DNA of 64,000 nucleotides from Microbacterium murale. GTDB taxonomy: Bacteria; Actinomycetota; Actinomycetes; Actinomycetales; Microbacteriaceae. Both the position numbers and the translations under genes were made by a program. This document shows positions 21,277 to 41,014 of the stretch, in pieces. Position 1 is the first letter of the stretch. Each line of letters starts with the position of its first letter. The stretch lies in assembly GCF_014635185.1 (NCBI RefSeq), contig NZ_BMCM01000001.1, positions 372,001-436,000 of the forward strand, in the 5' to 3' direction. A model generated the notes under the pieces. It saw nothing but the letters and a program-made list of their open reading frames with translations. It was not told the DNA's origin and ran no database searches.

Positions 21277-21882
21277 TCAGCCCGCGCGGTACCCGGTGTG
21301 GTCGGGGTTGTCTTTCAGCGCCCAGCCGTCGCCGTCCGCGACCACGAGGTTCTTCATGCCGCCCGCCTCTGCGATCACGGCGTAGTCCTGCCCCGCATCG
21401 GCCGCGTAGCAGAACAGCGTGACGAACGGCTCGTCGCCCACGTTCACGCTGCGATGGATCCAGTGGCCGGGCACGTTGACGGCCTGGCCTGGCGCGAGCT
21501 CGACGGCCGAGGTCTGCCCGTCGAGCGTCTCCAGCAGCATCACGCCGCGCCCGCTCAGGCAGTAGTACAGCTCGGCCCGATCCGCCACGGCGTGCAGATG
21601 CCCGCGGGTCACGGCGAACTCCTCCCCGTACAGGCCCGGCAGCACTGTGCTGGTGCCGACGATCAGTGCGCCGGGGCCCTCCTGGTAGCGCTGGTCGTCG
21701 ACCCAGTAGACCAGGTCGTCCGTGCCGCGCTCGCCGACGGCATCCTGCCACGCCTGCTCATCGCGGTAGACGCCATCCATGTCACCGAGGTATTTCTCAT
21801 AGCGGCGGGACCGCCCCTCTATGCCGCCCTGCGGCGAGATCTCCAGCAGGGTGGGGACATCCACGGCGGTTGGGGTGCTCAC
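21277..21882 (-). CDS. cupin-type glucose-6-phosphate isomerase
   Basis: A 201-residue protein of the archaeal-type (cupin) phosphoglucose isomerase family. The two cupin motifs are visible: GHLHAVADRAELYYCLSG (metal His/His/Glu, ~96-113) and PGHWIHRSVNVG (~140-151). It interconverts aldose and ketose 6-phosphates. The GTG start at 21882 follows an AGGAGA site. It is divergent from the FGGY kinase gene, and the 98-bp gap holds two tandem operator copies, so it belongs to the HutC-type regulon. A non-glucose sugar phosphate substrate is likely in this setting (inferred). Confidence 0.88.
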   Translation of the reverse strand: MSTPTAVDVPTLLEISPQGGIEGRSRRYEKYLGDMDGVYRDEQAWQDAVGERGTDDLVYWVDDQRYQEGPGALIVGTSTVLPGLYGEEFAVTRGHLHAVADRAELYYCLSGRGVMLLETLDGQTSAVELAPGQAVNVPGHWIHRSVNVGDEPFVTLFCYAADAGQDYAVIAEAGGMKNLVVADGDGWALKDNPDHTGYRAG

Positions 21883-21896
21883 GATGATCTCCTACG

Positions 21897-21926
21897 ACTT
21901 GTAACTACAGGACTTGTAATGACAGG
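21897..21926. promoter_or_regulatory. tandem operators of the HutC-type GntR regulon
   Basis: Two directly adjacent 15-bp copies: ACTTGTAACTACAGG (21897-21911) and ACTTGTAATGACAGG (21912-21926). Each has half-sites CTTGT-N4-ACAGG. The core GT-A-AN-N-AC keeps the spacing of the HutC-subfamily consensus GT(N)TA(N)AC. Related copies occur at 30898, 38731 and 38757. The likely reader is the UTRA-domain regulator at 40178. Confidence 0.75.
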
Positions 21927-21980
21927 TATACTCCAAAACAGCACGATCAGGAAACCGCAACCAACGAAGCAGGCACGCAC

Positions 21981-23471
21981 GTGATCATCGCCCACGACCT
22001 CGGCACCACCGGGAACAAGGCCTCACTGCACCACGACGACGGCCGACTCGTGGCATCCACGACCGTCGGCTATCCGGCGCACTTCGCCGCCGGCGGCGTC
22101 GCAGAGCAGAACCCTCAGGACTGGTGGAATGCCGTCGTATCGGCGACCCGCGACCTCCTCGCCCGCACGGCGACCTCGTCGGCCGACGTGCAGGGACTCG
22201 TCGTCAGCGGCCAGATGATGGGCGCGGTGCTGCTCGACGGCGACGGCCGTCCTGTGCGCCCGGCGATCATCTGGGCCGACACTCGCGCCGGCGCACAGCA
22301 GCGTGAGCTCGAACGTGCACTCGGCGCCGAACACGCATATCGACTCCTCGGGCATCGACTCAACCCGACCTACTCGGTGGAGAAGGTCATGTGGGTGCGC
22401 GACAACGAGCCCGATGTGTGGGCCCGCGTGCGCCGCTTCTGCATCGCCAAGGACTACATCGTGCTCGGCCTCACCGGGCGCCTGGCGACCGACCGCTCCG
22501 ATGCCTCCGGCACGAACGCCTACGACCAGCAGAGCGGCGACTGGTCGGACGAGGTGCTGACAGCGGCACGACTCGACCGATCACTCTTCCCCGAGATCCT
22601 CGACTCGACGGCGATCGCCGGTTCGCTCACGGATGCTGCCGCAGAAGCCCTCGGGTTGCACCCGGGTGTTCGGGTCGTGATGGGTGGTGGCGACGGGCCG
22701 ATGGCCGCCGTCGGATCGGGCATCGTCGCACCCGAGGACGGCGCGTACGTGTCGCTGGGCACGTCATCGTGGATCTCGTTCGCGTCACACACGCCACTGG
22801 TCGATGAGGGCATGCGCACCTTCACGTTCGACAACGTCGTGCCCGGATCGTTCGTGCCGACCGCCACGATGCAGGCCGGCGGCGCCTCGATCCAGTGGAT
22901 CAGCGAGGCGCTCTCCCCCGACCCCGCGAAGCCCGAGACGGCTCGGCTCACGGCCGAGGCCGGCAGCGATCTCGACACGGAAGACCTCTACTTCCTGCCC
23001 TACCTGCTCGGCGAGCGCTCCCCCATATGGGACCCGAACGCGCGCGGCGCCTTCGTCGGCATCGGCCGTCATCACACCCGCCAGCACCTCGTCCGCGCAG
23101 TGCTGGAGAGCCTGGGGTACAACCTGCTCACCAGCATCCATGCCTTCCGCGAATCGGGCGCGACGATCGACCGCATCGACGCCGTCGGCGGCGGTGCGCA
23201 GAGCGACGTGCTGCTGCAGATCCTCGCCGATGTGTGGGGCGTGCCGGTGCGGCGACGCACGATCGTCGAGGAGGCGAACAGCCTCGGTGCCGCCGTCACC
23301 GGTGCAGTCGGGCTCGGGCTCGCCGATTTCTCCGCCGCGCGGGAGCTCAGCGAGGTGACGGCGGAGTTCGTTCCGGATGCCGGGCGCCACGGTGTGCATG
23401 CGGCGCGGCACGCGCGCTTCACGTCCGCGTACGACGCCCTGGCGCCGTGGTTCGCCGCAGGAGCACGCTGA
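21981..23471 (+). CDS. FGGY carbohydrate kinase (xylulokinase-like)
   Basis: A 496-residue FGGY kinase. The phosphate loop is AHDLGTTGNKASLH (~4-17); the second domain has MGGGDGPMAAVGSG (~234-247), SLGTSSW (~258) and GGGAQSDVLLQILADVWGVP (~402-421). Overall it is most like xylulokinases, so a ketose is the probable substrate. GTG start. It opens an operon of four genes joined by 1-4 bp overlaps (kinase, D-2-hydroxyacid dehydrogenase, AroE-like dehydrogenase, phosphotriesterase-like hydrolase). Two tandem operators lie 55 bp upstream. Confidence 0.88.
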   Translation: MIIAHDLGTTGNKASLHHDDGRLVASTTVGYPAHFAAGGVAEQNPQDWWNAVVSATRDLLARTATSSADVQGLVVSGQMMGAVLLDGDGRPVRPAIIWADTRAGAQQRELERALGAEHAYRLLGHRLNPTYSVEKVMWVRDNEPDVWARVRRFCIAKDYIVLGLTGRLATDRSDASGTNAYDQQSGDWSDEVLTAARLDRSLFPEILDSTAIAGSLTDAAAEALGLHPGVRVVMGGGDGPMAAVGSGIVAPEDGAYVSLGTSSWISFASHTPLVDEGMRTFTFDNVVPGSFVPTATMQAGGASIQWISEALSPDPAKPETARLTAEAGSDLDTEDLYFLPYLLGERSPIWDPNARGAFVGIGRHHTRQHLVRAVLESLGYNLLTSIHAFRESGATIDRIDAVGGGAQSDVLLQILADVWGVPVRRRTIVEEANSLGAAVTGAVGLGLADFSAARELSEVTAEFVPDAGRHGVHAARHARFTSAYDALAPWFAAGAR

Positions 23472-24433
23472 TGGGCATCATCCTCGCCACGAGCCGCTCA
23501 TTCTCGGACGGCGACATCGACCTCGTCGCGCGAGCGGCGGATGCCGGGCACGAGATCGTCCGAGGGCCGGCGCACCACGAGCTCCACACGCTCGCTCCGC
23601 TGCTCGCGATAGCGGATGCCTGGATCGCGGGCACCGGCCCCGTCACGGCCGCGCATCTGGATGCTGCACCGAACCTCAGGGTCATCGCCCGCTACGGCGT
23701 CGGCACCGAGGCCGTCGACATCGACGCGGCCGAGGCTCGCGGCATCCTGGTCACCAACACGCCGGGCGCCAACGCCGATGCGGTCGCCGACCACGCCGTC
23801 GGCCTCATGCTCTCTGCCCTGCGCTGCATCCCCGACGGTGACCGGCGCGTGCGCGACGGCGACTGGGGTGTGCGCCGCGGACGTGAGCTCGGCGCCGCGA
23901 CCGTGGGCATCGTCGGCTTCGGCCGCATCGGCCAAGGCGTCGCCAGGCGGCTGAGCGGGTTCGGCCCGCGCATTCTCGCGGCCGATCCGTTCCTACCGGC
24001 CGAGCGCATCCGCGAACTCGGCGCCGAGCCCGTCGAAGTCGACGAGCTGTTCCGCACCGCCGACCTCATCACCCTGCACGCTCCGGGAGGGCAGCAACTC
24101 GTCGCGGGTGCTCTGCTCGACAGCATCCGACGCGGCGCGATCATCGTCAACACCGCCCGGCCCGACCTGGTCGACGAGCGCGAGGTCGCACACGCGCTGC
24201 GCGACGGCATCCTCGCCGGCTACGCCGCCGACACGCTCGACGGCGACACCGCGGCATCCGCCAGTCCCCTGCTCGCCCCCGAACTGGCCGACCGCGTGAT
24301 CGTGACCCCGCATCTGGGGGCGCAGACGACACAGGCCGTCGACAACATGGGCTCCATGTCGCTCGACGACGTGATCGCCGTCCTCGCAGGGCGCGAGCCC
24401 GCCTTCCCCGTCATCCGAAAGGCCGCATCATGA
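23471..24433 (+). CDS. D-isomer-specific 2-hydroxyacid dehydrogenase family protein
   Basis: A 320-residue NAD(P)-dependent dehydrogenase. The Rossmann motif is VGIVGFGRIGQGVARRL (~141-157). The catalytic region has IVNTARPDLVDE (~225-236), where most members have ARG, and the catalytic His in TPHLGAQTT (~283). The substrate would be a 2-hydroxy or 2-keto acid, unusual beside a sugar kinase. The real start is the ATG at 23471, sharing one base with the kinase stop; reading frames further upstream overlap the kinase. Overlaps the next gene by 4 bp. Confidence 0.87.
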   Translation: MGIILATSRSFSDGDIDLVARAADAGHEIVRGPAHHELHTLAPLLAIADAWIAGTGPVTAAHLDAAPNLRVIARYGVGTEAVDIDAAEARGILVTNTPGANADAVADHAVGLMLSALRCIPDGDRRVRDGDWGVRRGRELGAATVGIVGFGRIGQGVARRLSGFGPRILAADPFLPAERIRELGAEPVEVDELFRTADLITLHAPGGQQLVAGALLDSIRRGAIIVNTARPDLVDEREVAHALRDGILAGYAADTLDGDTAASASPLLAPELADRVIVTPHLGAQTTQAVDNMGSMSLDDVIAVLAGREPAFPVIRKAAS

Positions 24434-25356
24434 CCGCTCCTTCGTCCGATTACATGGGCTTCGTCGGCGTCACCACCGGTTCGTCGTCGATCATGAAGGT
24501 GTTCCCGCTGTGGGCCGACATCCTTGGTCTTCCCACCCGCACGCTCGTCGGGCACGACCTGCCGATGGACGCCGCGCCCGAGTTGTACCGCGCGATGGTC
24601 GAGCAGATCCGCGACGACCCACATCACCGCGGTGCGCTCGTCACGACGCACAAGATGAATGTGTACGCGGCGGCATCCGACCTGTTCGACGAGCTCGACC
24701 CGTTCGCGGTGTCGTGTTCGGAGATCTCCAGCATCGCCAAGCGGGGCTCACGCGTGTCCGGACGGGCGAAGGATCCGATCACGGTCGACCTCGCGCTCAA
24801 CGACTTCCTGCCCGCCGACCACTTCGTGCGCACCGGCGCCGAGGTCGTCATCCTCGGCGCCGGCGGCTCGGGCACCGCACTCAGCTGGGCGCTCTCCGAG
24901 CGGGCCGATGCCCCCTCCCGTGTGATCGTGACCGCGCGCGACGACGAGAAGCTCGAACACCTGCGCGAGGTGCACCGCCAGCACGGAACTCGCGACGGGT
25001 TCATCGAATATGCGCGGACCGATGCTCCGGAAGATGCCGCCGCGATCGTCGCCGCAGCGCCTCCCGGATCGCTCATCGTCAACGCCACCGGGCTCGGCAA
25101 GGATCGCCCAGGCTCTCCCCTGCCGGACAACGTCGTCTTCCCCGAAGGCGCGTACGTCTGGGAGTTCAACTACCGCGGCTCGCTGGAGTTCCTGCACCAG
25201 GCGCGCGCGCAGGAAGCCGAGCGCGGACTGCATGTCGTCGACGGCTGGCGGTACTTCATCCACGGCTGGTCGCAGGTCGTCGCCGACGTCTTCGAACTCG
25301 ATCTCACTCCCGAGGTCGTCGAACAGCTCGCGGAGGCCGCCGAGGGAGTGCGCTGA
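24430..25356 (+). CDS. shikimate dehydrogenase-like (AroE-family) oxidoreductase
   Basis: A 308-residue protein with the AroE layout. The N-terminal substrate domain has GSSSIMKVFP (~17-26) and ALVTTHKMNVYAA (~65-77); its THK Lys matches the catalytic Lys of shikimate dehydrogenases, and DLFDELD (~80-86) follows. A Rossmann domain has VVILGAGGSGTALSWALSE (~138-156). It is embedded in a sugar operon, not an aromatic one, so its substrate is probably a cyclic or open-chain polyhydroxy acid or a sugar derivative rather than shikimate. ATGA overlap at the 5' end and TGATG at the 3' end. Function unassigned. Confidence 0.8.
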   Translation: MTAPSSDYMGFVGVTTGSSSIMKVFPLWADILGLPTRTLVGHDLPMDAAPELYRAMVEQIRDDPHHRGALVTTHKMNVYAAASDLFDELDPFAVSCSEISSIAKRGSRVSGRAKDPITVDLALNDFLPADHFVRTGAEVVILGAGGSGTALSWALSERADAPSRVIVTARDDEKLEHLREVHRQHGTRDGFIEYARTDAPEDAAAIVAAAPPGSLIVNATGLGKDRPGSPLPDNVVFPEGAYVWEFNYRGSLEFLHQARAQEAERGLHVVDGWRYFIHGWSQVVADVFELDLTPEVVEQLAEAAEGVR

Positions 25357-26315
25357 TGATCCGCACGGTCCTCGGCGACATCGACCCGGCGCTGCTCGGG
25401 TCGACGAACTACCACGAGCACCTCTTCCAGGTGAGCCCGCTGCTACCGGGCGATGAGCTCGACGATGAGGATGCCTCGGGCGCGGAAGCCGCCCTGTTGA
25501 AGGGCAGCGGCTTCACCGCGATGGTGGATGCCACGCCGTTCGGCCTCGGTCGGAATCCGGAAGCCATCGCACGCATCAGCGCTTCCGCCGGGCTGCACGT
25601 CATCGCCACGACCGGCCGCCACCGCGAGGCGCACTACGGCGAAGAGCATCCGATGCAGGTGTGGACGGCCGAGCAGCTCGCGGAGCTCTTCATCGGCGAG
25701 GTGACAAGAGGGATGCCCGTGGACGACGCCGTCGTCTTCGAGAGCCCCGACGTACCGCTCGCCCGCACGCCCGGAGGCAGGCCGGTGCGCGCAGGAATGC
25801 TCAAGGGCGGGCTCGACTACTGGCGGATCAGCCCGTTCGAGCGCACCACGCTCGACGCTCTGGCCACCGCGCACCGTGCGACGCACGCGCCGATCATGGT
25901 GCACCTGGAGTTCTGCACCGCGGCGCACGAGGCGCTGGATCTGCTCGCGGCGGAGGGCGTGGCATCCGATCGGGTCGTACTCGCGCACGCCGACCGGGAT
26001 CCGGATGCCGGGCTGCACGCCTCGCTCGCCGAACGCGGCGCGTACCTCGGCTATGACGGCTTCGCTCGGCCTCGCACCCGCTCGGATGCGGAGCTGCTCG
26101 GCCTGACAGAGCAGGTCGTGTCACAGGTGGGAGCTGACCGCATCCTTCTCGGCGGCGACGTCGCGCGCCGCACTCGCTACATCTCCTACGGCGGCATGCC
26201 CGGCCTCGCCTACCTCGGCGACAGGTACCTGCCCCGGCTGCGGTCGCTCATCGGCGCGGATGCCGTGGAGCGGATGCTGGTCGCGAACCCCGCCCGGCTT
26301 CTCACGCTGGCGTGA
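25356..26315 (+). CDS. phosphotriesterase-family metal-dependent hydrolase (possible sugar lactonase)
   Basis: A 319-residue TIM-barrel protein of the phosphotriesterase family. Metal ligands of the family are visible: HxH in NYHEHLFQ (~19-21), Glu in VVFESPDVP (~125), His in IMVHLEFCT (~180), His in VVLAHADRDPD (~208), and Asp in ILLGGDVARR (~262). Relatives include sugar-phosphate lactonases as well as promiscuous organophosphate hydrolases, so ring-opening of a sugar lactone is a reasonable proposal, not shown by the sequence. Last gene of the kinase operon. Start ATG at 25356 overlaps the previous stop. Confidence 0.82.
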   Translation: MIRTVLGDIDPALLGSTNYHEHLFQVSPLLPGDELDDEDASGAEAALLKGSGFTAMVDATPFGLGRNPEAIARISASAGLHVIATTGRHREAHYGEEHPMQVWTAEQLAELFIGEVTRGMPVDDAVVFESPDVPLARTPGGRPVRAGMLKGGLDYWRISPFERTTLDALATAHRATHAPIMVHLEFCTAAHEALDLLAAEGVASDRVVLAHADRDPDAGLHASLAERGAYLGYDGFARPRTRSDAELLGLTEQVVSQVGADRILLGGDVARRTRYISYGGMPGLAYLGDRYLPRLRSLIGADAVERMLVANPARLLTLA

Positions 26316-27159: not shown

Positions 27160-28161
27160 TCACTCGTAGAGGACCGCTGCGATGTCCTCGTCTTCGATGT
27201 TCTTGGCGTCGTACCAGTACGAGCCGGTGTCGTAGAACTCCTCGACCGAGTCGCCGTTGGCCGCGTCGTATGCGGCCTGGACAACCTGCTCGCCGATGCC
27301 GATCGGGTCCTGCGTGATGGCGCCGGCCATGGTGCCGTCCTTGATCGCGTTGATCTGCGCGGCACCCGAGTCGAACCCGATGATGGTGATCTTGCCCTTT
27401 TCGAGGTTCAGCTCGTTGACGGCGTTCACGACGCCGATGGCCGAGCCCTCGTTGGTGCCGTAGATGCCCTTGAGGTCGGGGTGAGCGGCGATCATGGCCT
27501 TCGCGATGTCAGCCGACTTCAGGTGGTCGCCGTCGCCGTACTGGATGTCGACGATCTCGATGTCGGGGTAGTCCGCCTCGATCTTGTCGACGAAGCCGTC
27601 ACGACGCTCGACACCGGTGGAGTTGATCTGCGAGTGACCGACGATGGCCACCTCGCCCTCTCCGCCGATGAGCTCTGCCATGTGCTCGGCTGCCAGGGCT
27701 CCGGCGACCTTGCTGTCGGTGGCCGAGAGGCTCAGGCCCACGTCGCCGTTGCACGGTGCGTCGAAGTAGACGACCGGGATGTCCTTCGACTTCGCCTGCT
27801 CGAGCGGGGCGACGCACGCCTCGGGGTCGAGGGCGGCGTAGGCGATGGCATCCGGGTTCTTGTCGATCGCCGCGGTGAGCATCTCGAGCTGCTGCGCGAT
27901 CTCGGTCTCGGCAGCAGGGCCCTCGAACGTGATCTTCACGCCCAGCTCTTCGGCCTTCTGCTCGGCGCCCTTCTTGACGGCCTGCCAGAACTGGTGCTGG
28001 AAGCCCTTCGAGACGAGGGCGATGTACATCTCGCCGTCGCCGCTGCCGCCGTCTGTGCCGCCACCCTCTTCGATGACGTCACCGCCGCCGGCGCAGCCGG
28101 CCATGACGAGAGCGGATGCGGCCACGAGTGCCGCGAATGCGGTCTTCTTGCCAAATCGCAT
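27160..28161 (-). CDS. sugar ABC importer substrate-binding lipoprotein (RbsB-like)
   Basis: A 333-residue periplasmic-binding-fold (family 4) protein. The signal peptide ends in a lipobox MAGCAGGG (~21-28), then a Gly-rich linker, then MYIALVSKGFQHQFWQAVKK and IKDGTMAGAITQDPIGIG, typical of RbsB-like receptors. The ATG at 28161 (MRFGKK) is chosen because GGAG lies 8 nt upstream; an in-frame ATG at 28173 has no such site. The operon order is ATPase, permease, receptor. The operator-like site in the shared promoter suggests it belongs to the L-fucose regulon, so L-fucose is the proposed ligand (inferred). Confidence 0.9.
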   Translation of the reverse strand: MRFGKKTAFAALVAASALVMAGCAGGGDVIEEGGGTDGGSGDGEMYIALVSKGFQHQFWQAVKKGAEQKAEELGVKITFEGPAAETEIAQQLEMLTAAIDKNPDAIAYAALDPEACVAPLEQAKSKDIPVVYFDAPCNGDVGLSLSATDSKVAGALAAEHMAELIGGEGEVAIVGHSQINSTGVERRDGFVDKIEADYPDIEIVDIQYGDGDHLKSADIAKAMIAAHPDLKGIYGTNEGSAIGVVNAVNELNLEKGKITIIGFDSGAAQINAIKDGTMAGAITQDPIGIGEQVVQAAYDAANGDSVEEFYDTGSYWYDAKNIEDEDIAAVLYE

Positions 28162-30760: not shown

Positions 30761-30814
30761 GTGCTCACCTGCTCCCTTGAAGGTCGTACTCGGTTCCACC
30801 ATGGAATCCATTTC

Positions 30815-30830: not shown

Positions 30831-30897
30831 GTGCATGTCGGACCGCATCTGCACAAGTTGTATCTAAATGTACCTAACCCGATCCCATCATGGTAGA

Positions 30898-31826: not shown

Positions 31827-31830
31827 TCCC

Positions 31831-32250
31831 CTACGCAGAGGCGTGCCCCACGACGCCCTTGCGCAGCAGCGCATTGCCGTACTTGCGCGTCTCGCCGGTG
31901 CGCACCATGAGGTACGCCGGCTTCGCGACCTCGTAGTACGCGAAGCGCTCGACGAAACGAGTGGTCTCGGCGCTCACGCCTGCGGCGTCCATGAGCTCGC
32001 GCTGCACGTCGAGCACCTCGCCGTCGGCGGATTCCATCAGGTCGAGCCCTGGCGCATCGTCGAGCGGGATCACCGTGCGGATCGCGGCCAGCACCTCGGG
32101 CGTCGTCGTGCCGGGCAGGTCGACCACGCGTTCGCCGAGACCCCAGGCGGGGAAATGCGCGTCGGCGATCACGACGGCATCCGAATGCCCCATCCGGTCC
32201 AGATGCAGCAGCAGCTCACCTGTGAGCAGCGGGTGGATTCCTTCGAGCAT
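31831..32250 (-). CDS. fucU: L-fucose mutarotase (RbsD/FucU family)
   Basis: A 139-residue RbsD/FucU-fold protein. It begins MLEGIHPLLTGELLLHLDRM, with the catalytic-type GHSDAVVIADAHFP (~21-34) and the C-terminal RKYGNALLRKGVVG typical of FucU. It interconverts L-fucose anomers. The start at 32250 is chosen from family alignment; upstream extensions run antiparallel to nothing recognisable. It is downstream of the aldo/keto reductase and fuconate dehydratase genes on the same strand, so it completes the first step of that operon. Confidence 0.88.
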   Translation of the reverse strand: MLEGIHPLLTGELLLHLDRMGHSDAVVIADAHFPAWGLGERVVDLPGTTTPEVLAAIRTVIPLDDAPGLDLMESADGEVLDVQRELMDAAGVSAETTRFVERFAYYEVAKPAYLMVRTGETRKYGNALLRKGVVGHASA

Positions 32251-32284
32251 GTCTTGTCCTCGATCTCGGGTCAGGGCAACGTGT

Positions 32285-33247: not shown

Positions 33248-34529
33248 GCTCGCCCTTCCAGGTGTACTTCGCGATGCTCTCCGCCTTCATCTCCATGCTG
33301 ACACCTGGCGCGGTGGGCGGCATGTACGAGCCGCCCTGGATGTCGGTGGGCACGACGAAGTGCTCGTGCAGATGATCGACGAACTCGATCAGTCTCCCCT
33401 CAAGGGTGCCGGTCACGGCGACGAAGTCGAACATCGACAGGTGCTGCACGGCCTCGCAGAGCCCGACCCCGCCGGCGTGCGGGCAGACCGGGACGCCGAA
33501 CTTCGCGGCGAGCAGCAGATTGGCGATGTTCTCGTTGACCCCGGCCACGCGCACGGCGTCGATCTGCATGACCTCGATGGCGTTCGCCTGGAGCAGTTGT
33601 TTGAAGATCATCCGGTTCTGGGCGTGCTCGCCGGTCGCGACGCGGATGGGGGCGATGCCGCGGGCGATCTCGGCGTGACCGAGGATGTCGTCGGGGCTGG
33701 TGGGCTCCTCGACCCAGGCCGGGTTGAACTCGGCCAGCGCCTTCACCCACTCGATCGCCTCGGAGACCTCCCAGCGCTGGTTCGCGTCGATCGCGATCGG
33801 GAAGTCAGGTCCGACGACCTCGCGTGCCTTGCGGAAGCGGCGGATGTCGTCGTCGAGGTCTGCCCCGACCTTGAGCTTGATCTGGGTGAACCCGTCCGCG
33901 AGGGCCTCCAACGCGAGGCGTTCGAGCTTCTCGTCGGAGTAGCCGAGCCATCCGGGGCTCGTGGTGTAGCCCGGGTAGCCGGTGGCGAGCAGTTCGGCTT
34001 CGCGCTCATCCCTGCCGGCGACGCCTGCGCGCAGGATCTCGAGTGCGTCCTCGGGGGTGAGCGCATTGGTGAGGTAGCGGAAGTCGACCAGCGCGACGAG
34101 CTCCTCCGGCGTCATCCGGGCGAGCAGCTGCCAGAGCGGCAGGCCGGCGCGCTTGGCCTTGATGTCCCACAGCGCGTTCGTTACGGCGCCGATCGCCATG
34201 TGCATGACGCCCTTCTCAGGGCCGAGCCAACGCAACTGCGAGTCGCCGATGATCTCCCGGAACGTGGCGCCCATGTCGTCCAGCATCGGTTCGATCTCTC
34301 GACCGACCAGGTGTCCGGCGAGTGCATCGATCGCCGCGACCTGCACGTCGTTTCCTCGTCCGATCGTGAAGACGAACGCATGCCCCTCGACGCCGTCAGC
34401 AGCATCGGTGCGGATCACCGCGTACGCGGCCGAGTAGTCGGGGTCGGGGTTCATCGCGTCAGAGCCGTCCAGGCTCAGCGACGTGGGGAAGCGGATGTCG
34501 GTGGTCTCGAGTGCGGTGATGCGGCTCAC
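33234..34529 (-). CDS. L-fuconate dehydratase (enolase superfamily)
   Basis: A 431-residue mandelate-racemase-type enolase-superfamily protein, the size of L-fuconate dehydratases. Visible residues are the KxK base ([12 protein letters not shown], ~212-214), metal ligands Asp in [10 protein letters not shown] (~240) and Glu in VEEPTSPDD (~267), Glu in [10 protein letters not shown] (~295), and the C-terminal His in [11 protein letters not shown] (~345). It removes water from L-fuconate to give 2-keto-3-deoxy-L-fuconate. The start is the GTG at 34529 ([11 protein letters not shown]), preceded by GAGGAGAGG; an upstream in-frame ATG has no family similarity. Divergent from the FAH-hydrolase gene. 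Confidence 0.9.
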
Positions 34530-34580
34530 GGGGAATCCTCTCCTCGTGCAGCACGAATATTCTGCACGGATCTCTTGGAG

Positions 34581-34600
34581 TGTAAACATCGGATGTCTAT
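34581..34600. promoter_or_regulatory. candidate operator in the divergent L-fucose promoter
   Basis: TGTAAACATCGGATGTCTAT; the core ACATC-G-GATGT (34586-34596) is a perfect dyad apart from its central base. It lies midway between the fuconate dehydratase start (34529) and the hydrolase start (34655), so it can control both. A second core, ACATCCGATGT, lies inside the hydrolase gene at 34739-34749. Confidence 0.6.
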
Positions 34601-34654
34601 ACTGTCAATCAGACGTGCCGCCGAACGGCGGCTTCCCCGAGAGGCTGGAGAACC

Positions 34655-35515
34655 ATGAAGTTCGCGCGGCTTGGCGCCCCTGGATCCGAGATTCCCGTCC
34701 TGGTCGACGGTGATCGACACTTCGACCTCAGGTCGGTGACATCCGATGTTGACGGTGATTTTCTCGCCGGCGACTTCCGCGAGCGCGTGGATGCGGCCCG
34801 CGCCGCGGGCGAGCTCCCGGAACTCGAGGGAGCAGCGGATCTTCGCATCGGCGCGCCGATCGCACGCCCGAGCGCCGTGATCTGCATCGGCATGAACTAC
34901 GCAGCTCACGCAGCGGAGTCCGGCTCTGAGCCGCCGAAGATTCCGATCATCTTCCTGAAGACGCCGAACACCGTCGTCGGCCCGAACGATGACGTCACGA
35001 TCCCCCGCGGCAGTGAGAAGACCGACTGGGAGGTCGAACTCGGCATCGTCATCGGCGCACGAGCGGCGTACCTCGACTCCCCCGATGAGGCCGACGCGCA
35101 CATCGCCGGCTATGTCGTGGCGAACGACGTCTCGGAGCGCGCCTTCCAGATCGAGGTCTCCGGCGGACAGTGGTCGAAGGGCAAGATCGCCCCCGGCTTC
35201 AACCCGACCGGCCCATGGCTGGTGACTCCTGACGAGGTCGACGTCGACGACCTCAACCTGAAGAGCTTCGTGAACGGCGAACCCCGTCAGGACTCGAACA
35301 CCAGCGACATGATCTTCGATGTGCGCACCATCGTGCACCATCTCTCGCAGTACGTCACGCTCGAACCGGGCGACCTCATCCTCACCGGCACCCCGCAGGG
35401 CGTGGCCCTGTCGGGCAAGTACCCGTACCTGAAGCCCGGCGATGTCGTCGAGATCTCCATCGACGGACTCGGACACCAGCGGCAGAACTTCGTGGCATGG
35501 GAGGCGACCCGATGA
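34655..35515 (+). CDS. FAH-family hydrolase, probable 2,4-diketo-3-deoxy-L-fuconate hydrolase
   Basis: A 286-residue fumarylacetoacetate-hydrolase-family protein. The catalytic domain opens ICIGMNYAAHAAESG (~74-88) with the active-site His. Metal acidic residues lie in DWEVELGIVIG (~125-135) and YVVANDVSERAFQ (~155-167); the C-terminal LEPGDLILTGTPQGV is the family signature. In the non-phosphorylating L-fucose pathway this family splits 2,4-diketo-3-deoxy-L-fuconate to pyruvate and L-lactate. Overlaps the SDR gene by 4 bp. Confidence 0.88.
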   Translation: MKFARLGAPGSEIPVLVDGDRHFDLRSVTSDVDGDFLAGDFRERVDAARAAGELPELEGAADLRIGAPIARPSAVICIGMNYAAHAAESGSEPPKIPIIFLKTPNTVVGPNDDVTIPRGSEKTDWEVELGIVIGARAAYLDSPDEADAHIAGYVVANDVSERAFQIEVSGGQWSKGKIAPGFNPTGPWLVTPDEVDVDDLNLKSFVNGEPRQDSNTSDMIFDVRTIVHHLSQYVTLEPGDLILTGTPQGVALSGKYPYLKPGDVVEISIDGLGHQRQNFVAWEATR

Positions 35516-36264
35516 GCGCTCCACTGGAAGGCCTCGTCGCGATCGTCACCGGTGGCGCTTCGGGCATCGGCGCGGCGATCGCCACCCGCCTGCACGCCGA
35601 CGGGGCACAGATCGCGGTGCTCGACCGCGACACGTCCGGCGCCGACGAGCGCTTCGCCGCGTTCACTGCCGACGTCTCCGATCGCGCGAGCGTGGATGCC
35701 GCGGTCACTGCCGTCGCAGGCAAGTTCGGCCGCATCGACATCGTCGTGAACAACGCCGGCATCGGCGCCATCGGCGACATCAGCGCGAACGACGACGAGG
35801 AGTGGGCACGGGTGCTCTCTGTCAACGTCACGGGCATCGCACGCGTGACCGCGGCCGCACTCCCCTGGCTGCGCAAGTCACCCGCCGCTGCGGTGTGCAA
35901 CACGGCATCCATCGCCTCCTCGACCGGCCTGCCCGCGCGCGCCCTCTACAGCGCATCGAAAGGCGCCGTCTCGGCACTGACCCGCGCCATGGCGGCCGAC
36001 CATCTGCGCGAGGGCATCCGCGTCAACGCCGTGAACCCCGGCACGGCCGACACCCCGTGGGTCGGGCGCCTGCTCGATCAGGCCGCCGACCCCGGAGCCG
36101 AGCGCGCGGCACTCGAGGCGCGGCAGCCGCACGGGCGCCTGGTCTCGCCCGACGAGGTCGCCGCGGCTGTGGCGTACCTGGTCGGCCCGTCCGCAGCATC
36201 CACCACCGGCACGTTCATCGAGGTCGACGGAGGCATGGCGCAGCTGCGCCTGCGGGCGGAGTAG
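35512..36264 (+). CDS. SDR oxidoreductase, probable 2-keto-3-deoxy-L-fuconate dehydrogenase
   Basis: A 250-residue classical short-chain dehydrogenase: cofactor motif VTGGASGIGAAIA (~12-24), NNAG (~79-82), catalytic Ser in NTASIASSTG (~137), Tyr and Lys in YSASKGAVS (~151-155). The C-terminus GTFIEVDGGMAQLR is standard. Given its coupling by ATGA overlap to the FAH hydrolase, it probably oxidises 2-keto-3-deoxy-L-fuconate to the 2,4-diketo acid. The specific substrate is inferred from context. Confidence 0.87.
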   Translation: MSAPLEGLVAIVTGGASGIGAAIATRLHADGAQIAVLDRDTSGADERFAAFTADVSDRASVDAAVTAVAGKFGRIDIVVNNAGIGAIGDISANDDEEWARVLSVNVTGIARVTAAALPWLRKSPAAAVCNTASIASSTGLPARALYSASKGAVSALTRAMAADHLREGIRVNAVNPGTADTPWVGRLLDQAADPGAERAALEARQPHGRLVSPDEVAAAVAYLVGPSAASTTGTFIEVDGGMAQLRLRAE

Positions 36265-36286
36265 TCGCCGACCCCGACGCCCCGTC

Positions 36287-36337
36287 CCGCCGTCGACGCC
36301 CCCTCGTGTCGACGTGTTCACGAGGGGGCATCGGCGG
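36287..36337. terminator. hairpin between convergent SDR and lactonase genes
   Basis: Inner arms GCCCCCTCGTG (36298-36308) and CACGAGGGGGC (36319-36329) pair perfectly over 11 bp around a 10-nt loop. Outer CCGCCG and CGGCGG extend the stem with a bulge. It fills the convergent gap and could terminate both transcripts. No clear T-run. Confidence 0.65.
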
Positions 36338-36366
36338 TCAGAGGGGGCCTCGGCGAAAGGGGCGCG

Positions 36367-37254
36367 TCAGACCCGGTAGAACCGCTCGGCGTTGCTCCAC
36401 AGGATCGCATCGACATCGACGGCGCGTGAAACGGCCCAGGATGTGACGGCATCAGTCCACGCGCCGATCGCGCCGGCATCCAGCGCCGCATCCGCGCCGC
36501 CGTTCCAACCGGATGCCGTGACCGCCGACACCGGCCAGTCGCTGCCGATCATCAGTCGGTCGGGCCCGAACGCCTCCAGCGCCGCGTCGAAGAACGGCTC
36601 CATCTGCGCCGGGCTCCACGACCCGCCGGCCTCGGCGGGCAGCCCGGAGAGCTTGCAGAAGACCTGTGAGTGCACGGCGAGCGCTCCCATCGCATCCGCC
36701 CACTCCGCAGACGGCAACGACGATGCCGCGGCCGTCCCCACCGCGGGCTTGCCGAGGTGATCCAGCACGATGCGAAGCTCCGGCATGTCCGCCGCGAGCC
36801 GGATCACATCGCGCATCTGCGCTTCACCGCGCACGCACGCATCGAACGTCAGGTCTCGTTCGACCAGCGCCGCCGCTCCCGCGCGGAACGCCGGCGTCGC
36901 GGCGAACCCGTCCGCCTCACCCTGCAGCAGATGCCGCACCCCGACGACGAGCGGGCGCTCAGCGACAGCATCCAGGTGACGAACCGTCGCCGCCCCGCGA
37001 TCGAGCCGGGCGCCGGCGACGATCCCGCGCACACCGACCTGAGTGGCGAGCGAGGCGACCCAGTCGATCTCGTCGAGGTACTGCGCCTCGATGCAGTCGG
37101 CCTGCACGAACACGAAACCACGCTCGCCATCGACCGCGCCGACGGCGCTCGCCACCTCATCCGCCGCGAACCGCGCCCGCAACGGTCCCGAAAGCCACGG
37201 ATAGTCGAGGAGCGACGGATCCCACAGGTGCAGATGTGAATCGAGAACGCGCAT
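36367..37254 (-). CDS. amidohydrolase-2 family, probable L-fuconolactonase
   Basis: A 295-residue amidohydrolase-superfamily protein of the COG3618 (predicted sugar/dicarboxylate lactonase) type. The N-terminal metal motif is LDSHLHLWDP (~4-13), with FVFVQADCIEAQYLDE (~50-65), LDHLGKPA (His ~165) and IGSDWPVS (Asp ~240). It would open L-fucono-lactone to L-fuconate, the missing step between the aldo/keto reductase and dehydratase. The start ATG at 37254 gives MRVLDSHLHL. Divergent from the FCD regulator over a 47-bp gap that contains the operator-like site. Confidence 0.87.
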   Translation of the reverse strand: MRVLDSHLHLWDPSLLDYPWLSGPLRARFAADEVASAVGAVDGERGFVFVQADCIEAQYLDEIDWVASLATQVGVRGIVAGARLDRGAATVRHLDAVAERPLVVGVRHLLQGEADGFAATPAFRAGAAALVERDLTFDACVRGEAQMRDVIRLAADMPELRIVLDHLGKPAVGTAAASSLPSAEWADAMGALAVHSQVFCKLSGLPAEAGGSWSPAQMEPFFDAALEAFGPDRLMIGSDWPVSAVTASGWNGGADAALDAGAIGAWTDAVTSWAVSRAVDVDAILWSNAERFYRV

Positions 37255-37270
37255 GGCACCATCCTGCCCC

Positions 37271-37285
37271 AGACATCCGATCAAT
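37271..37285. promoter_or_regulatory. candidate operator between lactonase gene and its FCD regulator
   Basis: AGACATCCGATCAAT shares ACATC-S-GATCAAT with 30817-30829 and AGACATCCGAT with the reverse complement of 34588-34598. It directly precedes the regulator's -10-like TAGGAT (37289-37294) and lies 17 bp upstream of the lactonase start, so both genes could be repressed from it. Confidence 0.55.
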
Positions 37286-37301
37286 CGCTAGGATGACGAT
37301 C

Positions 37302-38000
37302 ATGGCTGTAACCGATGAGGCGATCGAGAAGATCAAGTCGATGATCGTGTCCGGCGAGTTGTCTCCCGGAGACCGCCTCCCCCCGGAGAAAGAGCTCTCC
37401 GAACGCCTCGGCCTCTCGCGCAACTCGATGCGCGAAGCCGTGAAGGCTCTCGAGGTCATCCGAGTGCTCGACGTGCGCCGAGGCGACGGCACCTACGTCA
37501 CCAGCCTCGAGCCGCACCTGCTGCTCGAGGCGATCTCGTTCGTCGCCGACATGCACGACGACGATTCGCTGCTCGAGATCTTCGCGGTCAGACGGATGCT
37601 GGAATCTCAGGCGACCGGACTCGCCGCGACCCTCGGCACCACCGAGGGGATCGACGCGCTGCACACCGAGCTGGACGGCATCGACTCCGACGTCTCCGTC
37701 GATGCGCTCGTCGAGCACGACATCCGATTCCACCGCGACATCGTCCGCATGGCGGGCAACACCTATCTCGCCAGCCTCATCGAGAGCCTCAGCGGCCAGA
37801 CAGTGCGCGCACGCATCTGGCGAGGACTCACGGAACAGGGTGCGGTCGAGCGCACGCTGTCGGAGCACCGCGGCATCGCCGATGCGATCGCGCAGCGAGA
37901 CCCGAACCTCGCCACATCGCTGGCCACCGCGCACATCGCCGGCATCGAGCGCTGGCTGCGCCAGGCGGTCGCCGTCACCGAGAGCGGCGCCGAGGCGTAG
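37302..38000 (+). CDS. GntR/FCD regulator, probable controller of the L-fucose regulon
   Basis: A 232-residue GntR protein: winged helix LSERLGLSRNSMREAVKALE (~38-57), then an FCD domain (IFAVRRMLESQATGLAA ~90; EHDIRFHRDIVRMAGNTYL ~137-155; LSEHRGIADAIAQRD ~187; TAHIAGIERWL ~207) with conserved metal-type Asp/His positions. The ATG at 37302 follows a TAGGAT box (37289-37294) by 7 nt, so it is probably leaderless; the in-frame ATG at 37293 lies inside that box. Its position beside the lactonase gene and recurrent ACATC-S-GAT sites point to control of the fucose genes and perhaps of the ABC importer. Confidence 0.87.
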   Translation: MAVTDEAIEKIKSMIVSGELSPGDRLPPEKELSERLGLSRNSMREAVKALEVIRVLDVRRGDGTYVTSLEPHLLLEAISFVADMHDDDSLLEIFAVRRMLESQATGLAATLGTTEGIDALHTELDGIDSDVSVDALVEHDIRFHRDIVRMAGNTYLASLIESLSGQTVRARIWRGLTEQGAVERTLSEHRGIADAIAQRDPNLATSLATAHIAGIERWLRQAVAVTESGAEA

Positions 38001-38039: not shown

Positions 38040-38708
38040 TCAAACCCCGATGCGCCCCATCGCGGCGTCGAACTCCACGGCAGAGCTGTCGCTCACCGGA
38101 TGCTGCAGCACCTGATCCAGCACATCCGGCGCAGCCGTGAAATACGGCACACCCGCCAGTCGCAGCGACACGATGTCGTCGGCCGAACGCAGGCTCGCCG
38201 CCAGCACGTTCGTCGCGCTCCCCGCGCACACGGCCTGCATCTCGGGGATGAGCGCATCACCGTCGACGCCGGCATCCCGCAGGCGCCCGAGATACGGCGC
38301 GATGTACGCCGCACCGATGCTCGCCGCGGCGAGCGCCTGTGCGACCGAGTACACGGCGGTGACGAGCACGGTCGCACCGTCGGAGACCAGTGCGGATGCC
38401 GCGGCGAAGCCCTCGGCGGTCGCCGGAACCTTCACTGCCACTCGATCACCGAGCCCGCGAATTGTCTCGGCGTTGCGCAGCAGTTCGGCACGGGAGGAGC
38501 CCCAGGTCTGGAAGAAGATCTCCCGCGCGCCCTCCTCCGCCCACTGCGAGTACAGCGAGGGAATCTCGGCCGCCGTGCGGCCACCGCGCTCGAGGATCGT
38601 GGGGTTCGTGGTCACGCCGTGCACCACTCCGGCCGCGAGCAGCCGCGACACGCGTTCGGTGTCGGCGCTGTCGACATACAGGCGCGGGGCGATGGCTGCA
38701 GCGGGCAT
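38040..38708 (-). CDS. transaldolase-family protein, fructose-6-phosphate aldolase-like
   Basis: A 222-residue protein of the small transaldolase subfamily. It begins LYVDSADTERVSRLLAAG, with VVHGVTTNPTILERGG (~30-45) and the Schiff-base Lys in VAVKVPATAEGF (~96). The length fits FSA/TalC-type enzymes and not the ~315-residue transaldolase B. It would cleave or transfer a dihydroxyacetone unit from a ketose (phosphate). Start ATG at 38708 (MPAAAIAPRL). Divergent from rbsK across a 102-bp gap with two HutC-type sites, so it belongs to the same regulon as the FGGY kinase. Confidence 0.83.
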   Translation of the reverse strand: MPAAAIAPRLYVDSADTERVSRLLAAGVVHGVTTNPTILERGGRTAAEIPSLYSQWAEEGAREIFFQTWGSSRAELLRNAETIRGLGDRVAVKVPATAEGFAAASALVSDGATVLVTAVYSVAQALAAASIGAAYIAPYLGRLRDAGVDGDALIPEMQAVCAGSATNVLAASLRSADDIVSLRLAGVPYFTAAPDVLDQVLQHPVSDSSAVEFDAAMGRIGV

Positions 38709-38730
38709 GGAATCGACTCCTTGTGACGAA

Positions 38731-38745
38731 CCTGTCGTTACAAGT
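38731..38745. promoter_or_regulatory. HutC-type regulon operator near the transaldolase-like gene
   Basis: CCTGTCGTTACAAGT, the reverse complement of ACTTGTAACGACAGG. It differs from the 21897 site at one position and from the 21912 site at one position. It lies 22 bp upstream of the transaldolase-like start, suited to repression of that gene. Confidence 0.75.
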
Positions 38746-38756
38746 TCGGATTCGGC

Positions 38757-38771
38757 TAATGTAATGACAGG
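38757..38771. promoter_or_regulatory. HutC-type regulon operator near rbsK
   Basis: TAATGTAATGACAGG matches the 21912-21926 site in its last 12 bases; only the first three differ. It is 39 bp upstream of the rbsK start and faces the opposite way from the site at 38731, fitting control of the divergent rbsK-rbsD-gntR operon. Confidence 0.65.
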
Positions 38772-38810
38772 AAACGGCCCTGTCAAAGCGGGCCACGTCG
38801 AAGGAGCCAC

Positions 38811-39755
38811 ATGGCCACCCCCTCCACCGAAGGACGCAACGGCGTCGTCATCGTCGGCAGCGTCACGGCGGATGTGACCACGTTCTCCCAGCGCCTTCCC
38901 GCGCGTGGCGAGACGATCCTCGGCGATCATTTCACGCTGATGCTGGGCGGGAAGGGCGCGAACCAGGCCGTGGCGGCGGGCCGGGCCGGCGCGCGGACGA
39001 GCTTCGTCGGCTGCGTCGGCGACGACCTCTTCCACGACCTGGTCGTCGACGGGCTCACGGATGCCGGCGTCGATCTCACGCACCTGCGCACCGTTCCCGG
39101 TCCGACCGGCGTTGCCCATATCCGCGTCGACGCCTCGGCGCAGAACGACATCGTCATGGTGCCGCTCGCCAACGCCGAGCTGAACACCGATCAGATCGAT
39201 GCCGCGCTCGACGCACTCGCTCCGTCCACTTCGGTGCTGTTGACCCAGCTCGAGACGCCGTCCGCGCTGACCGCGCACATCACCGCCAGGGGCCGCGAAC
39301 TCGGCATGACGGTCATCCTCGACCCTGCCCCCGCCGCTCCGCTGCCCGCGGAGGTCTGGGCGAACATCGACATCGTCACGCCGAATGAGACCGAGGCCTC
39401 GATCCTCAGCGGCATCGAGGTGACGGATGCCGCGACCGCGGAACAGGCCGGGCGCTGGTTCCTCGACCACGGCGTCGCGGCCGCCGTGATCACCCTGGCG
39501 GCTCAGGGCTCGTGCGTCGTCACGGCCGACGGCGCGACGCTCGTGCCGCCGTTGCCGGTCGCGGCCGTCGACACCACTGCCGCCGGCGATGCGTATGCCG
39601 GTTACCTCGGCGCTGCGCTCGCGAACGGCGCCTCCCTGACCGACGCGGTCCGCCTCGCCACGGCCGCCGGCGCACTCACCGTCACGAAGCAGGGCGCCTC
39701 GCCGAGTCTGCCCGTCCGTGCAGACGTGGACGCCTTCCTGGCGTCCAGAGTCTGA
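38811..39755 (+). CDS. rbsK: ribokinase-family (PfkB) sugar kinase
   Basis: A 314-residue PfkB-family kinase: N-terminal GSVTADVTTFSQRLPARGET, substrate-binding GGKGANQAVAAGRAGA (~44-59), and the C-terminal ATP/anion-hole motif VDTTAAGDAYAGYL (~250-263) with the catalytic Asp. The features match ribokinase. It is followed after 23 bp by rbsD, which supports D-ribose or a related aldose as substrate. The usual rbs transporter genes are not adjacent, and the regulon contains further enzymes, so the sugar may not be ribose. Confidence 0.88.
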   Translation: MATPSTEGRNGVVIVGSVTADVTTFSQRLPARGETILGDHFTLMLGGKGANQAVAAGRAGARTSFVGCVGDDLFHDLVVDGLTDAGVDLTHLRTVPGPTGVAHIRVDASAQNDIVMVPLANAELNTDQIDAALDALAPSTSVLLTQLETPSALTAHITARGRELGMTVILDPAPAAPLPAEVWANIDIVTPNETEASILSGIEVTDAATAEQAGRWFLDHGVAAAVITLAAQGSCVVTADGATLVPPLPVAAVDTTAAGDAYAGYLGAALANGASLTDAVRLATAAGALTVTKQGASPSLPVRADVDAFLASRV

Positions 39756-39778
39756 TCGCCAGAGACCAGGAGCCCGCG

Positions 39779-40177
39779 ATGCGCAAGACCTCGACCACCA
39801 TCAACCCGGCTCTGTCGCGCGTGATCAGCGAGACCGGGCACACCGATCTCATCGTCGTGACGGATGCCGGGTTGCCGATCCCGCCCGGATCCGAGCGGAT
39901 CGACCTCGCCTATCGCCCAGGATCCCCGGCCTTCTTCGATGTGCTCGACACCGTGCTGGCCGAGATGGTCGTGGAGGGCGCGACGGTGTCGGCCGAGGTC
40001 GAGAAGCAGAGCCCCGAGGTGCTGGCCGGACTTCGTGAGCGGCTACCAGGCATCGAGATCGAACTCGTGCCGCACGTCGAGTTCAAGAAGCGGACGCACG
40101 GCGCACGCGCGTTCGTGCGCTCCGGCGAATTCACACCGTACGCGAACGTGATCCTGCACGCGGGGGTGGCGTACTAG
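39779..40177 (+). CDS. rbsD: D-ribose pyranase (RbsD)
   Basis: A 132-residue RbsD-family mutarotase. It aligns end to end with RbsD: INPALSRVISETGHTDLIVV with the active-site His (~20), TDAGLPIPPGSERIDLAY, and the C-terminal ARAFVRSGEFTPYANVILHAGVAY region. It converts pyranose and furanose forms of an aldose, feeding the adjacent ribokinase. AGGAG lies upstream of the ATG. The stop TAG abuts the ATG of the regulator gene directly, so these are one transcript. Confidence 0.92.
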   Translation: MRKTSTTINPALSRVISETGHTDLIVVTDAGLPIPPGSERIDLAYRPGSPAFFDVLDTVLAEMVVEGATVSAEVEKQSPEVLAGLRERLPGIEIELVPHVEFKKRTHGARAFVRSGEFTPYANVILHAGVAY

Positions 40178-41014
40178 ATGGCCGCCACAGCCCCGGCCAG
40201 GCCGGCCGCAACCGACGCGATCGACCGGCACTCCGCCGCTCCGATGTACGACCAGCTGCGCCAGTTGATCATCGACGGCATCACCCGGGACGGCCTTCAG
40301 CCGGGCGATCCGCTCCCCGGCGAGCACCGACTGTGCGAGCGTTACGGCATCTCGCGCACGGTCGTACGGCAGGCTCTCGCGCAGCTCGAGCACGAGGGCC
40401 TCGTCGAACGCGTCAAGGGCAAGGGCACTTTCGTGTCGCGGCCGCGCACGAGCGAAGCGCTGGTCCATACGCTGATCGGCCTGTTCGACGACGTCGAGCG
40501 GCGCGGTGGACACGTGCACAGCGACATCCTGCGGCACGAGCGGACGGATGCCGATGCCGACGTCGCCGCAGCCCTCGAGGTGCCCGTCGGGTCTGCGGTC
40601 ATCGCGCTGGAGCGGCTCCGCCACGTCGACGGCGAGCCGTGGTCGCTCTCGACGACGTGGATGCCGGATGCCGTCGGCGCCTTCACCCTCGACGTCGACC
40701 TGTCCGAAGCCTCGTTGTATCGCGTGCTCGCCGAGCACGGCATCCGCGCGACCGACGGCGTGCGCTCCGCCGAGGCGACCGTCGCGACCCACGACCAGGC
40801 TCAGCAGCTGGATGTCAGTGCGGGCTCTGCGCTGCTGCGACTGCGCAGCATCAGCCGGGACGCGAACGGGACGCCGATCGAGTACTTCGTCGCTCTGCAC
40901 CGCGGCGACCGCTCACGATTCGAATTCCAGCTTCGCCAGGAGCAGTCCCAGGCGTCGCTGCTGCACGTCGACGGCGACGGCGGCACGTCGCGAGCCGGTA
41001 CAGTCTCTCTCTGA
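40178..41014 (+). CDS. GntR/HutC-subfamily regulator with UTRA domain
   Basis: A 278-residue regulator: GntR winged helix PMYDQLRQLIIDGI to ISRTVVRQALAQLEHEGLVE (~22-75), then a UTRA effector domain (~95-250; VIALERLRHVDGEPWSLSTTW, SASAL-type motif GSALLRLRSISRDANGTPIEY). UTRA domains bind sugars, sugar phosphates or similar small ligands. Third gene of the rbsK operon, immediately after rbsD, so it is probably autoregulated through the sites at 38731-38771. It is the most likely reader of all ACTTGTAAYNACAGG sites in this window (inferred from family spacing and location). Confidence 0.88.
   Translation: MAATAPARPAATDAIDRHSAAPMYDQLRQLIIDGITRDGLQPGDPLPGEHRLCERYGISRTVVRQALAQLEHEGLVERVKGKGTFVSRPRTSEALVHTLIGLFDDVERRGGHVHSDILRHERTDADADVAAALEVPVGSAVIALERLRHVDGEPWSLSTTWMPDAVGAFTLDVDLSEASLYRVLAEHGIRATDGVRSAEATVATHDQAQQLDVSAGSALLRLRSISRDANGTPIEYFVALHRGDRSRFEFQLRQEQSQASLLHVDGDGGTSRAGTVSL

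Follow-up and report, generated by a model that had tools for sequence, protein, structure and literature searches.

Which regulator ties together the carbohydrate genes scattered over one region of the Microbacterium murale genome, and which sugar do they serve? We analyzed a window of 64,000 nucleotides (contig NZ_BMCM01000001.1, positions 372,001 to 436,000; all coordinates below are those of the window), in which near-identical short motifs recur between 21277 and 41014, together with a gene for a UTRA-domain GntR-type regulator (GNTR; 40178–41014, + strand). The original prediction joined these motifs and their neighboring genes into a carbohydrate regulon of unassigned substrate. A local regulon of GNTR is supported by the co-occurrence of sites and regulator, by the comparison of clusters, by named genomes and by a distant member, and on this sequence evidence we regard it as highly probable; that GNTR acts as the local repressor of this sugar-catabolic regulon is nearly as probable.

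The five motif copies were found as predicted, as 15-mers at 21897 (+), 21912 (+), 38731 (−), 38757 (+) and 30898 (−), and all of them lie in divergent gaps. These are 21883–21980, between the genes for a cupin-type isomerase (GPI, −) and an FGGY kinase (+); 38709–38810, between the genes for an aldolase/transaldolase-like protein (FSA, −) and the kinase RbsK (+); and 30761–30953, between the genes for an ABC transporter ATPase (−) and a ketose 3-epimerase-like protein (EPI, +). The genes named in the prediction stand, but the list was incomplete, because the RbsABC-type ABC transporter at the 30898 site had been overlooked. Likewise, the 15-mer is present but a directional 15-mer is not the unit; comparison with relatives gives a 14-bp palindrome, CCTGTAATTACAGG, with the core TGTA-N2-TACA, in which the predicted HutC-like GT-N4-AC spacing is retained. 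As a palindrome, the operator has no strand. Operators 1a (CTTGTAACTACAGG, 21898–21911, matrix score 21.5–21.6) and 1b (CTTGTAATGACAGG, 21913–21926, 22.8, the best of the window) lie in the GPI/FGGY promoter, operator 2 (CCTGTAATAACAAC, 30898–30911, 17.6) in the transporter/epimerase promoter, and operators 3a (CCTGTCGTTACAAG, 38731–38744, 18.5) and 3b (AATGTAATGACAGG, 38758–38771, 16.8) in the FSA/RbsK promoter. The same form as operator 3b stands ahead of rbsK in many relatives.

These scores come from a symmetric matrix that was built from 17 sites of relatives only, with the window excluded from training. The matrix ranked the five operators first to fifth in the 64-kb window (22.8, 21.6, 18.5, 17.6 and 16.8), the next scores being 11.8 and 2.8. 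The site scoring 11.8, CTTGTCACTACAAC at 53655–53668, is distant from the regulon. When up to three mismatches were allowed, the window contained 7 matches against a shuffle mean of 0.79, and none of 100 shuffles reached 7; note that one of the seven is the palindrome read in reverse and another, at 29928, is within the coding sequence of the ATPase. Across the 3.9-Mb genome, the four sites matching CTTGTWAYNACAGG with at most one mismatch all fall within this stretch, as do five of the six matching the looser TTGTWAYNACAGG and three of the six places with the core TGTNATNACA, some matches of which are on contigs C6 and C7. The raw numbers themselves speak against a specific signal: the count for TTGTWAYNACAGG equals that of its reversed-pattern control (6 and 6), the control is commoner at three mismatches (501+542 vs. 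201+239), and the reversed control of TGTNATNACA gave 7 and 7 matches vs. 6 and 6. Moreover, one site scored 17.5 in 20 Markov-shuffled versions of the window, and another of 17.0 lies within a coding region of locus L052. The genome counts and the single shuffle site would suit a chance likeness of short AT-rich intergenic motifs. However, the matrix from relatives recovered all five sites blind and the same promoters are conserved over genera and phyla, and, unless a shared compositional bias accounts for both, we reject this explanation as having a negligible probability. Since the looser patterns are no commoner than the reversed control, the signal lies in clustering and not in number; random scatter over the genome, which had been named as a refutation, was thus not seen in that the clustering in this stretch is unusual, but the number of sites does not exceed the control.

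GNTR is another member of a well-known kind of regulator. Its GntR helix-turn-helix (PF00392, 70.1 bits) and UTRA domain (PF07702, 122.3 bits) both scored above cut-off, its nearest solved proteins are DasR (about 120 bits) and YvoA (106 bits), and all named equivalogs remained under cut-off (PhnF 134.3 of 156.8, HutC 119.6 of 220, TreR 93.1 of 211.95). A palindromic operator with the GT-N4-AC core sits ahead of the regulator's own operon, rbsK-rbsD-gntR. A scan of viral contigs with the regulator as query gave no relative. In a family sample of 299 genomes taken evenly from a larger group, GNTR occurred in 18 and the divergent AroE-fold dehydrogenase of the cluster (SDHL) in 39. All 17 GNTR-type cluster loci, from 16 genomes, carried sites scoring at least 11 (the weakest, L041, 14.6), although these loci also supplied the training sites of the matrix. 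In contrast, none of the 23 other SDHL loci, all without GNTR shown, had such a site (best score 8.7); most of them hold parts of the core cluster, and L073–L075 show SDHL only. One of them, L066, belongs to a genome (G033) with GNTR elsewhere, and the GNTR locus of that genome, L176, has two sites. The five further GNTR loci, L176–L180, all have sites. The strict motif was found in 9 of the 18 family genomes with GNTR vs. 10 of the 281 without it (Fisher 7e-8; related genomes are not independent, so this and the other p-values given here are overstated), and in the GNTR genomes its 13 matches (9 places) are all inside the cluster.

A second set, drawn from named genomes and from plasmids (84 loci), gave sites in 20 of 23 loci with GNTR vs. 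2 of 35 without GNTR in view (Fisher 2e-10); the former number is 23 of 26 before removal of L115, L118 and L126, which repeat training genomes. The 23 Microbacterium loci L089–L111, in which GNTR lies outside the flanks, were excluded from both counts, and all of them have sites. At the position of operator 2, 22 of these 23 have a site; only L093, in which no gene for the transporter was seen, does not. Many relatives have the site immediately between GNTR and GPI-FGGY. Farthest from the window is locus L154, from Chloroflexota: its GNTR is 40% identical to the window protein, and CCTGTCATTACAGG lies where the regulator gene begins.

The regulon also appears to have a distant member. On contig C4 a site scoring 19.4, CCTGTGATGACAGG, lies 15 bp upstream of a gene for a DkgA-like aldo-keto reductase (AKR; 350.8 bits, under the cut-off of 425). 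The corresponding gap was searched in 99 Microbacterium genomes, and the 27 best matches covering the reductase start were used (16 with a match spanning the gap, and 11 more). The site was present in 10 of the 12 genomes with GNTR and in none of the 15 without it (Fisher 8e-6), one of the latter, G441, being 68% complete. L204, L205 and L208, whose match is confined to the far side of the gap, were left out; L205 holds a site of 21.8.

Besides the overstated p-values, several observations weigh against the regulon as drawn here. GNTR is absent from 10 of the 19 family genomes in which the strict motif occurs, so that single matches can be chance. In the second set, L132, L144 and L161 have a GNTR-like gene and no site, although the proteins of L144 (39% identity) and L161 (36% identity) may be other UTRA proteins, while L114 and L116 have a site and no GNTR in view. 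G436 and G377 possess GNTR and lack the AKR site, and the ABC-epimerase gap is without a site in several relatives.

We then considered how the operators are placed relative to promoters. The likely −10 element of the FGGY operon, TATACT (21927–21932, +), directly abuts operator 1b, and the likely −10 element of rbsK, TAATGT, is formed by operator 3b plus position 38757, inside the conserved form TAATGTAATGACAGG, whose rows were picked with that pattern and hence provide no independent count. TANNNT adjoins the operator in nine of the ten promoters printed, L049 being the exception; in L037, which has two operators, it comes after the first. It abuts 41 of 105 sites scoring at least 18, in 71 sequences, as compared with 0.2% of sampled positions, a number inflated by close relatives or repeats among these sequences. 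Operators that overlap or adjoin the core promoter suggest repression, which is therefore the probable mode of action as far as promoter sequences can tell.

Another regulator encoded in the window has to be considered as the reader of these sites. A FadR-type GntR gene (37293–38000) adjoins the FSA-rbsK promoter here and in many relatives, and its product might read the sites, with the L-fucose-type genes next to it belonging to the same regulon. However, no site with a matrix score of at least 11 occurs in 31831–38000, and sites together with GNTR but with no FadR-type gene seen were found, for instance, in L046, L048, L049, L052, L119, L129, L135–L137 and L154, although that gene could lie elsewhere in these genomes. 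We consider this explanation very improbable and list it as rejected, and so, for want of an operator in that interval, is the inclusion of the L-fucose-type genes in the regulon. This L-fucose-type oxidative set in 31831–38000 (mutarotase, aldo-keto reductase, enolase-family sugar-acid dehydratase, FAH hydrolase, SDR and fuconolactonase) was named by best family matches with scores under cut-offs; it has its own FadR-type regulator, and many relatives keep it linked to the regulon.

Two further sequence elements were noticed near such operators. A conserved element adjoining operator 2 (30852–30877; on the − strand about TTAGRTACATTTAGATACAACTTG) contains a 10-bp repeat, is seen in most Microbacterium loci printed and is weaker in L100 and L105; it is possibly the site of a second regulator or a promoter part. 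In other genera, a sister operator form, TGTATCTACA/TGTAGATACA, lies upstream of the binding-protein gene in L041, L044, L112, L114, L176 and L179.

The genes flanking the operators encode a set of sugar enzymes and transport proteins, which mostly score under the cut-offs of the nearest curated families. The cupin-type phosphoglucose isomerase-like protein (GPI-A; 21277–21882, −) matched Pfam GPI PF06560 with 120 bits and no NCBIfam family; its closest solved relatives are cupin phosphoglucose isomerases, and its His-x-His, Glu and His residues, which we take to be metal ligands, align with those of 1j3p. The FGGY kinase (21981–23471, +) is xylulokinase-like by family score (TIGR01312, 393.6 bits, cut-off 380.25), although the xylulokinase family NF011601 was not reached (264.3 of 912). 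It is followed on the + strand by genes for a D-2-hydroxyacid dehydrogenase (HADH; 23471–24433; Pfam 2-Hacid_dh_C), SDHL (24430–25356) and a hydrolase of the PTE superfamily (PTE; 25356–26315), the last being nearest to phospho-furanose lactonases (Pfam PTE; NF045706, 89.9 bits of 630; best solved match 3pnz). The transporter genes encode a sugar-binding protein (27160–28161, −; Peripla_BP_4), a permease (28227–29258, −) and the ATPase (29258–30760, −). EPI (30954–31826, +) is of the D-allulose/L-ribulose type (phmmer E 1e-109 to 5zfs/8yeb) and scored under the cut-off for D-psicose 3-epimerase (NF051856, 157.4 of 300). FSA (38040–38708, −; TAL_FSA) resembles fructose-6-phosphate aldolase/transaldolase (TIGR00875, 137 bits of 245.95), the PfkB-type kinase RbsK (38811–39755, +) is ribokinase-like and slightly under cut-off (TIGR02152, 291.8 bits, cut-off 299.65), and the RbsD pyranase (39779–40177, +) is above it (NF008761, 149.3 bits, cut-off 93).

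SDHL gave weak AroE matches (best 38.1 of a cut-off of 252), and its profile matches were solved AroE relatives, with 5-ketofructose reductase as the second-best. Its structural model (pLDDT 93.7) has a fold resembling quinate/shikimate dehydrogenases (Foldseek 2nlo, TM 0.72, E 1e-16). Lys75 and Asp115, which presumably have the catalytic roles known from AroE, are invariant in 29 rows, and the Asp is also aligned to AroE in the profile match. The 28 further members, from seven phyla (one without phylum), are 48–67% identical to the window copy; by sequence, SDHL is a distinct AroE-fold family.

This dehydrogenase keeps much the same company in most loci. Within the 84 loci, some of which are short, HADH accompanies SDHL in 75, FGGY in 74, GPI in 70 and a KDPG aldolase (EDA) in 41, and the core recurs, with losses, across seven phyla. 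The GNTR-type loci share the order FSA / rbsK-rbsD-gntR / GPI-FGGY-HADH-(EDA)-SDHL-PTE, with local changes and with transporter and epimerase mostly adjoining. In many relatives an EDA gene separates HADH from SDHL, whereas these two genes overlap in the window (24430–24433); nor is there space for it in G258. Within 9 kb of SDHL, 60 loci have PTE only, 13 a hydrolase of the MBL type only, one has both and 10 have neither. Two unrelated hydrolase folds filling the same place argue for a lactone, and the alternation suggests, from gene content, a shared lactone step; both folds include known lactonases. Rhizobium and Sinorhizobium plasmids carry the core with an MBL hydrolase (the Rhizobium protein scores 53.6 of 144 for a metal-dependent hydrolase family); genes for polyol dehydrogenases and for an RpiR-type regulator lie with it, and the operator is lacking. 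L085 is without EDA. A second exchange concerns the isomerase. Apart from the cut-off locus L096, all 22 of the loci L089–L111 have exactly one cupin gene, either GPI-A (divergent, 9) or GPI-B (co-directional, 13). Since the two never occur together in these loci, they are probably isofunctional, a non-orthologous isomerase swap with operator control kept. In L093 (Microbacterium sp. Bi121), two SDHL genes were seen, one in a PTE-type cluster and one beside an MBL-type hydrolase.

From the sites, genes, co-occurrence and conservation read in these sequences, we infer binding, repression, effector and substrate as follows. A GNTR dimer would bind CCTGTAATTACAGG over or beside the core promoters in the three divergent gaps and would shut off the isomerase gene and the FGGY-HADH-SDHL-PTE operon, the FSA gene and the rbsK-rbsD-gntR operon (hence its own gene), the ABC transporter and ketose 3-epimerase genes, and the distant DkgA-like reductase gene. 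DasR and NagR are released by a sugar phosphate, and by analogy a pathway metabolite of this kind would release GNTR. A ketose or its aldose, the likely substrate, would be taken up, adjusted by RbsD mutarotation and the epimerase, and then phosphorylated by FGGY and RbsK. The cupin enzyme would carry out the aldose-ketose isomerization to an aldose phosphate, SDHL would oxidize this to a phosphorylated lactone that PTE would hydrolyze, and HADH would oxidize at C2. Aldol cleavage would come last, by EDA in relatives and by FSA or another aldolase in the window. This reaction order, drawn from enzyme classes only, is tentative and doubtful in its details. Somewhat less tentatively, the core of cupin isomerase, FGGY, SDHL, PTE/MBL lactonase, HADH and KDPG-type aldolase might be an undescribed phosphorylative-oxidative sugar pathway occurring in at least seven phyla, under a UTRA-GntR regulator in one Actinomycetota set and RpiR-type regulators in others and in Alphaproteobacteria. 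Three points count against this pathway: SDHL, PTE, FSA and RbsK are under the curated cut-offs of their nearest named families; EDA is missing from the window and was seen in one of the 23 Microbacterium loci, leaving the proposed last step unexplained there; and the choice of PTE or MBL largely tracks phylum (MBL being mostly alphaproteobacterial), so that their exchange may reflect lineage history. That no pathway could be named, as the original prediction had it, has so far been borne out, with the nearest curated families mostly under cut-off and no matching description of pathway or operator in the open-licence literature searched; the accessible text of PMC9007349 mentions neither shikimate, FGGY nor cupin.

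The family membership of SDHL and AKR suggests a different use of the same enzymes, in which these two would be keto-sugar reductases or dehydrogenases of the 5-ketofructose type, with the lactonase-type enzyme working on a product formed later. Known 5-ketofructose reductases do occur in both enzyme families, according to the accessible part of PMC7954740, and, as noted above, SDHL has such a reductase as its second-best profile match. However, the same text reports that a Clostridium shikimate-dehydrogenase homologue is inactive on 5-ketofructose, AroE-type catalytic residues do not determine the substrate, and reduction of 5-ketofructose yields fructose, which would make the other enzymes superfluous. 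We therefore consider this pathway improbable.

Growth descriptions of cluster carriers bear on the substrate. Cryobacterium tagatosivorans Sr47 carries the cluster in its genome (L112), where some of the L-fucose-type genes are also in view. Among the 19 Cryobacterium descriptions, in the accessible part of PMC10067761, it alone forms acid from D-tagatose and it alone from L-fucose; acid from D-lyxose is given for it and one other. SDHL is present in 9 of 57 Cryobacterium genomes. Microbacterium galbinum SSW1-36 (L110) and M. sufflavum SSW1-51 (L097) also carry the cluster, and in the accessible part of PMC10757982 acid from D-lyxose and D-arabinose is listed for both and for M. croceum. D-Tagatose as the common substrate is unsupported, as that part never mentions it. 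In these accessible texts, the one rare sugar that all three cluster carriers share is D-lyxose, in a comparison that covers carriers. This invites a simple pentose route, in which the cupin enzyme would be a D-lyxose isomerase acting on the free sugar and FGGY a xylulokinase, converting D-lyxose to xylulose 5-phosphate, while the other enzymes, though governed by the same repressor, would act on different sugars. The FGGY score above the xylulokinase cut-off and the D-lyxose acid of all three carriers, listed in only 2 of the 19 Cryobacterium descriptions accessible, favor it. On the other hand, the enzymes that the cupin protein resembles are named glucose-6-phosphate isomerases, and the wide company of HADH, SDHL and a lactonase-type hydrolase with kinase and isomerase is left unexplained. 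In addition, D-lyxose use is not rare in Microbacterium, being listed for three of the four new species of that genus in the part accessible, and M. croceum, M. aurugineum and C. lyxosi may or may not carry the cluster. We regard the pentose route as unlikely, though less so than the 5-ketofructose-type pathway, and retain the phosphorylative-oxidative scheme as our working proposal.

If this proposal holds, the repressor-operator pair conserved from Microbacterium to the Chloroflexota locus delimits the genes that work as a unit, including the distant one, and turns loosely annotated enzymes into one testable pathway; a substrate assignment would name a sugar route in plant-associated Rhizobium and Actinomycetota. 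SDHL is annotated as shikimate dehydrogenase in four of four plasmid records, an annotation that is probably wrong for hundreds of genomes (at least 488 relatives among the matches listed). It has the AroE fold, as do the 5-ketofructose reductases of the shikimate dehydrogenase family, whose known examples act on sugar; unlike these, it is accompanied in most of the 84 loci by kinase, isomerase and lactonase-type hydrolase, and its fold match to 7col has 18% identity. UlaG is the lactonase of L-ascorbate utilization. As with this enzyme and the phospho-furanose lactonases, an MBL- or PTE-fold hydrolase could here open a phosphorylated sugar lactone, although the PTE protein differs from the curated phospho-furanose lactonase in reaching 89.9 of 630. 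Known operators of the HutC subfamily of GntR regulators are palindromic with a GT-N4-AC core. GNTR shares this operator type and the combination of GntR helix-turn-helix and UTRA domains with DasR and YvoA/NagR of that subfamily, but it differs from them in its operator CCTGTAATTACAGG, which we take to be close to the HutC form TGTA-N2-TACA and distinct from the DasR dre site, in controlling a sugar operon, and in matching no named regulator family at cut-off. Finally, the window resembles the ribose operon rbsDACBK in its RbsABC-type transporter, its RbsD above cut-off and its RbsK slightly under it, but it adds an isomerase, an FGGY kinase, two dehydrogenases, a hydrolase, an epimerase and an aldolase under the same operator.

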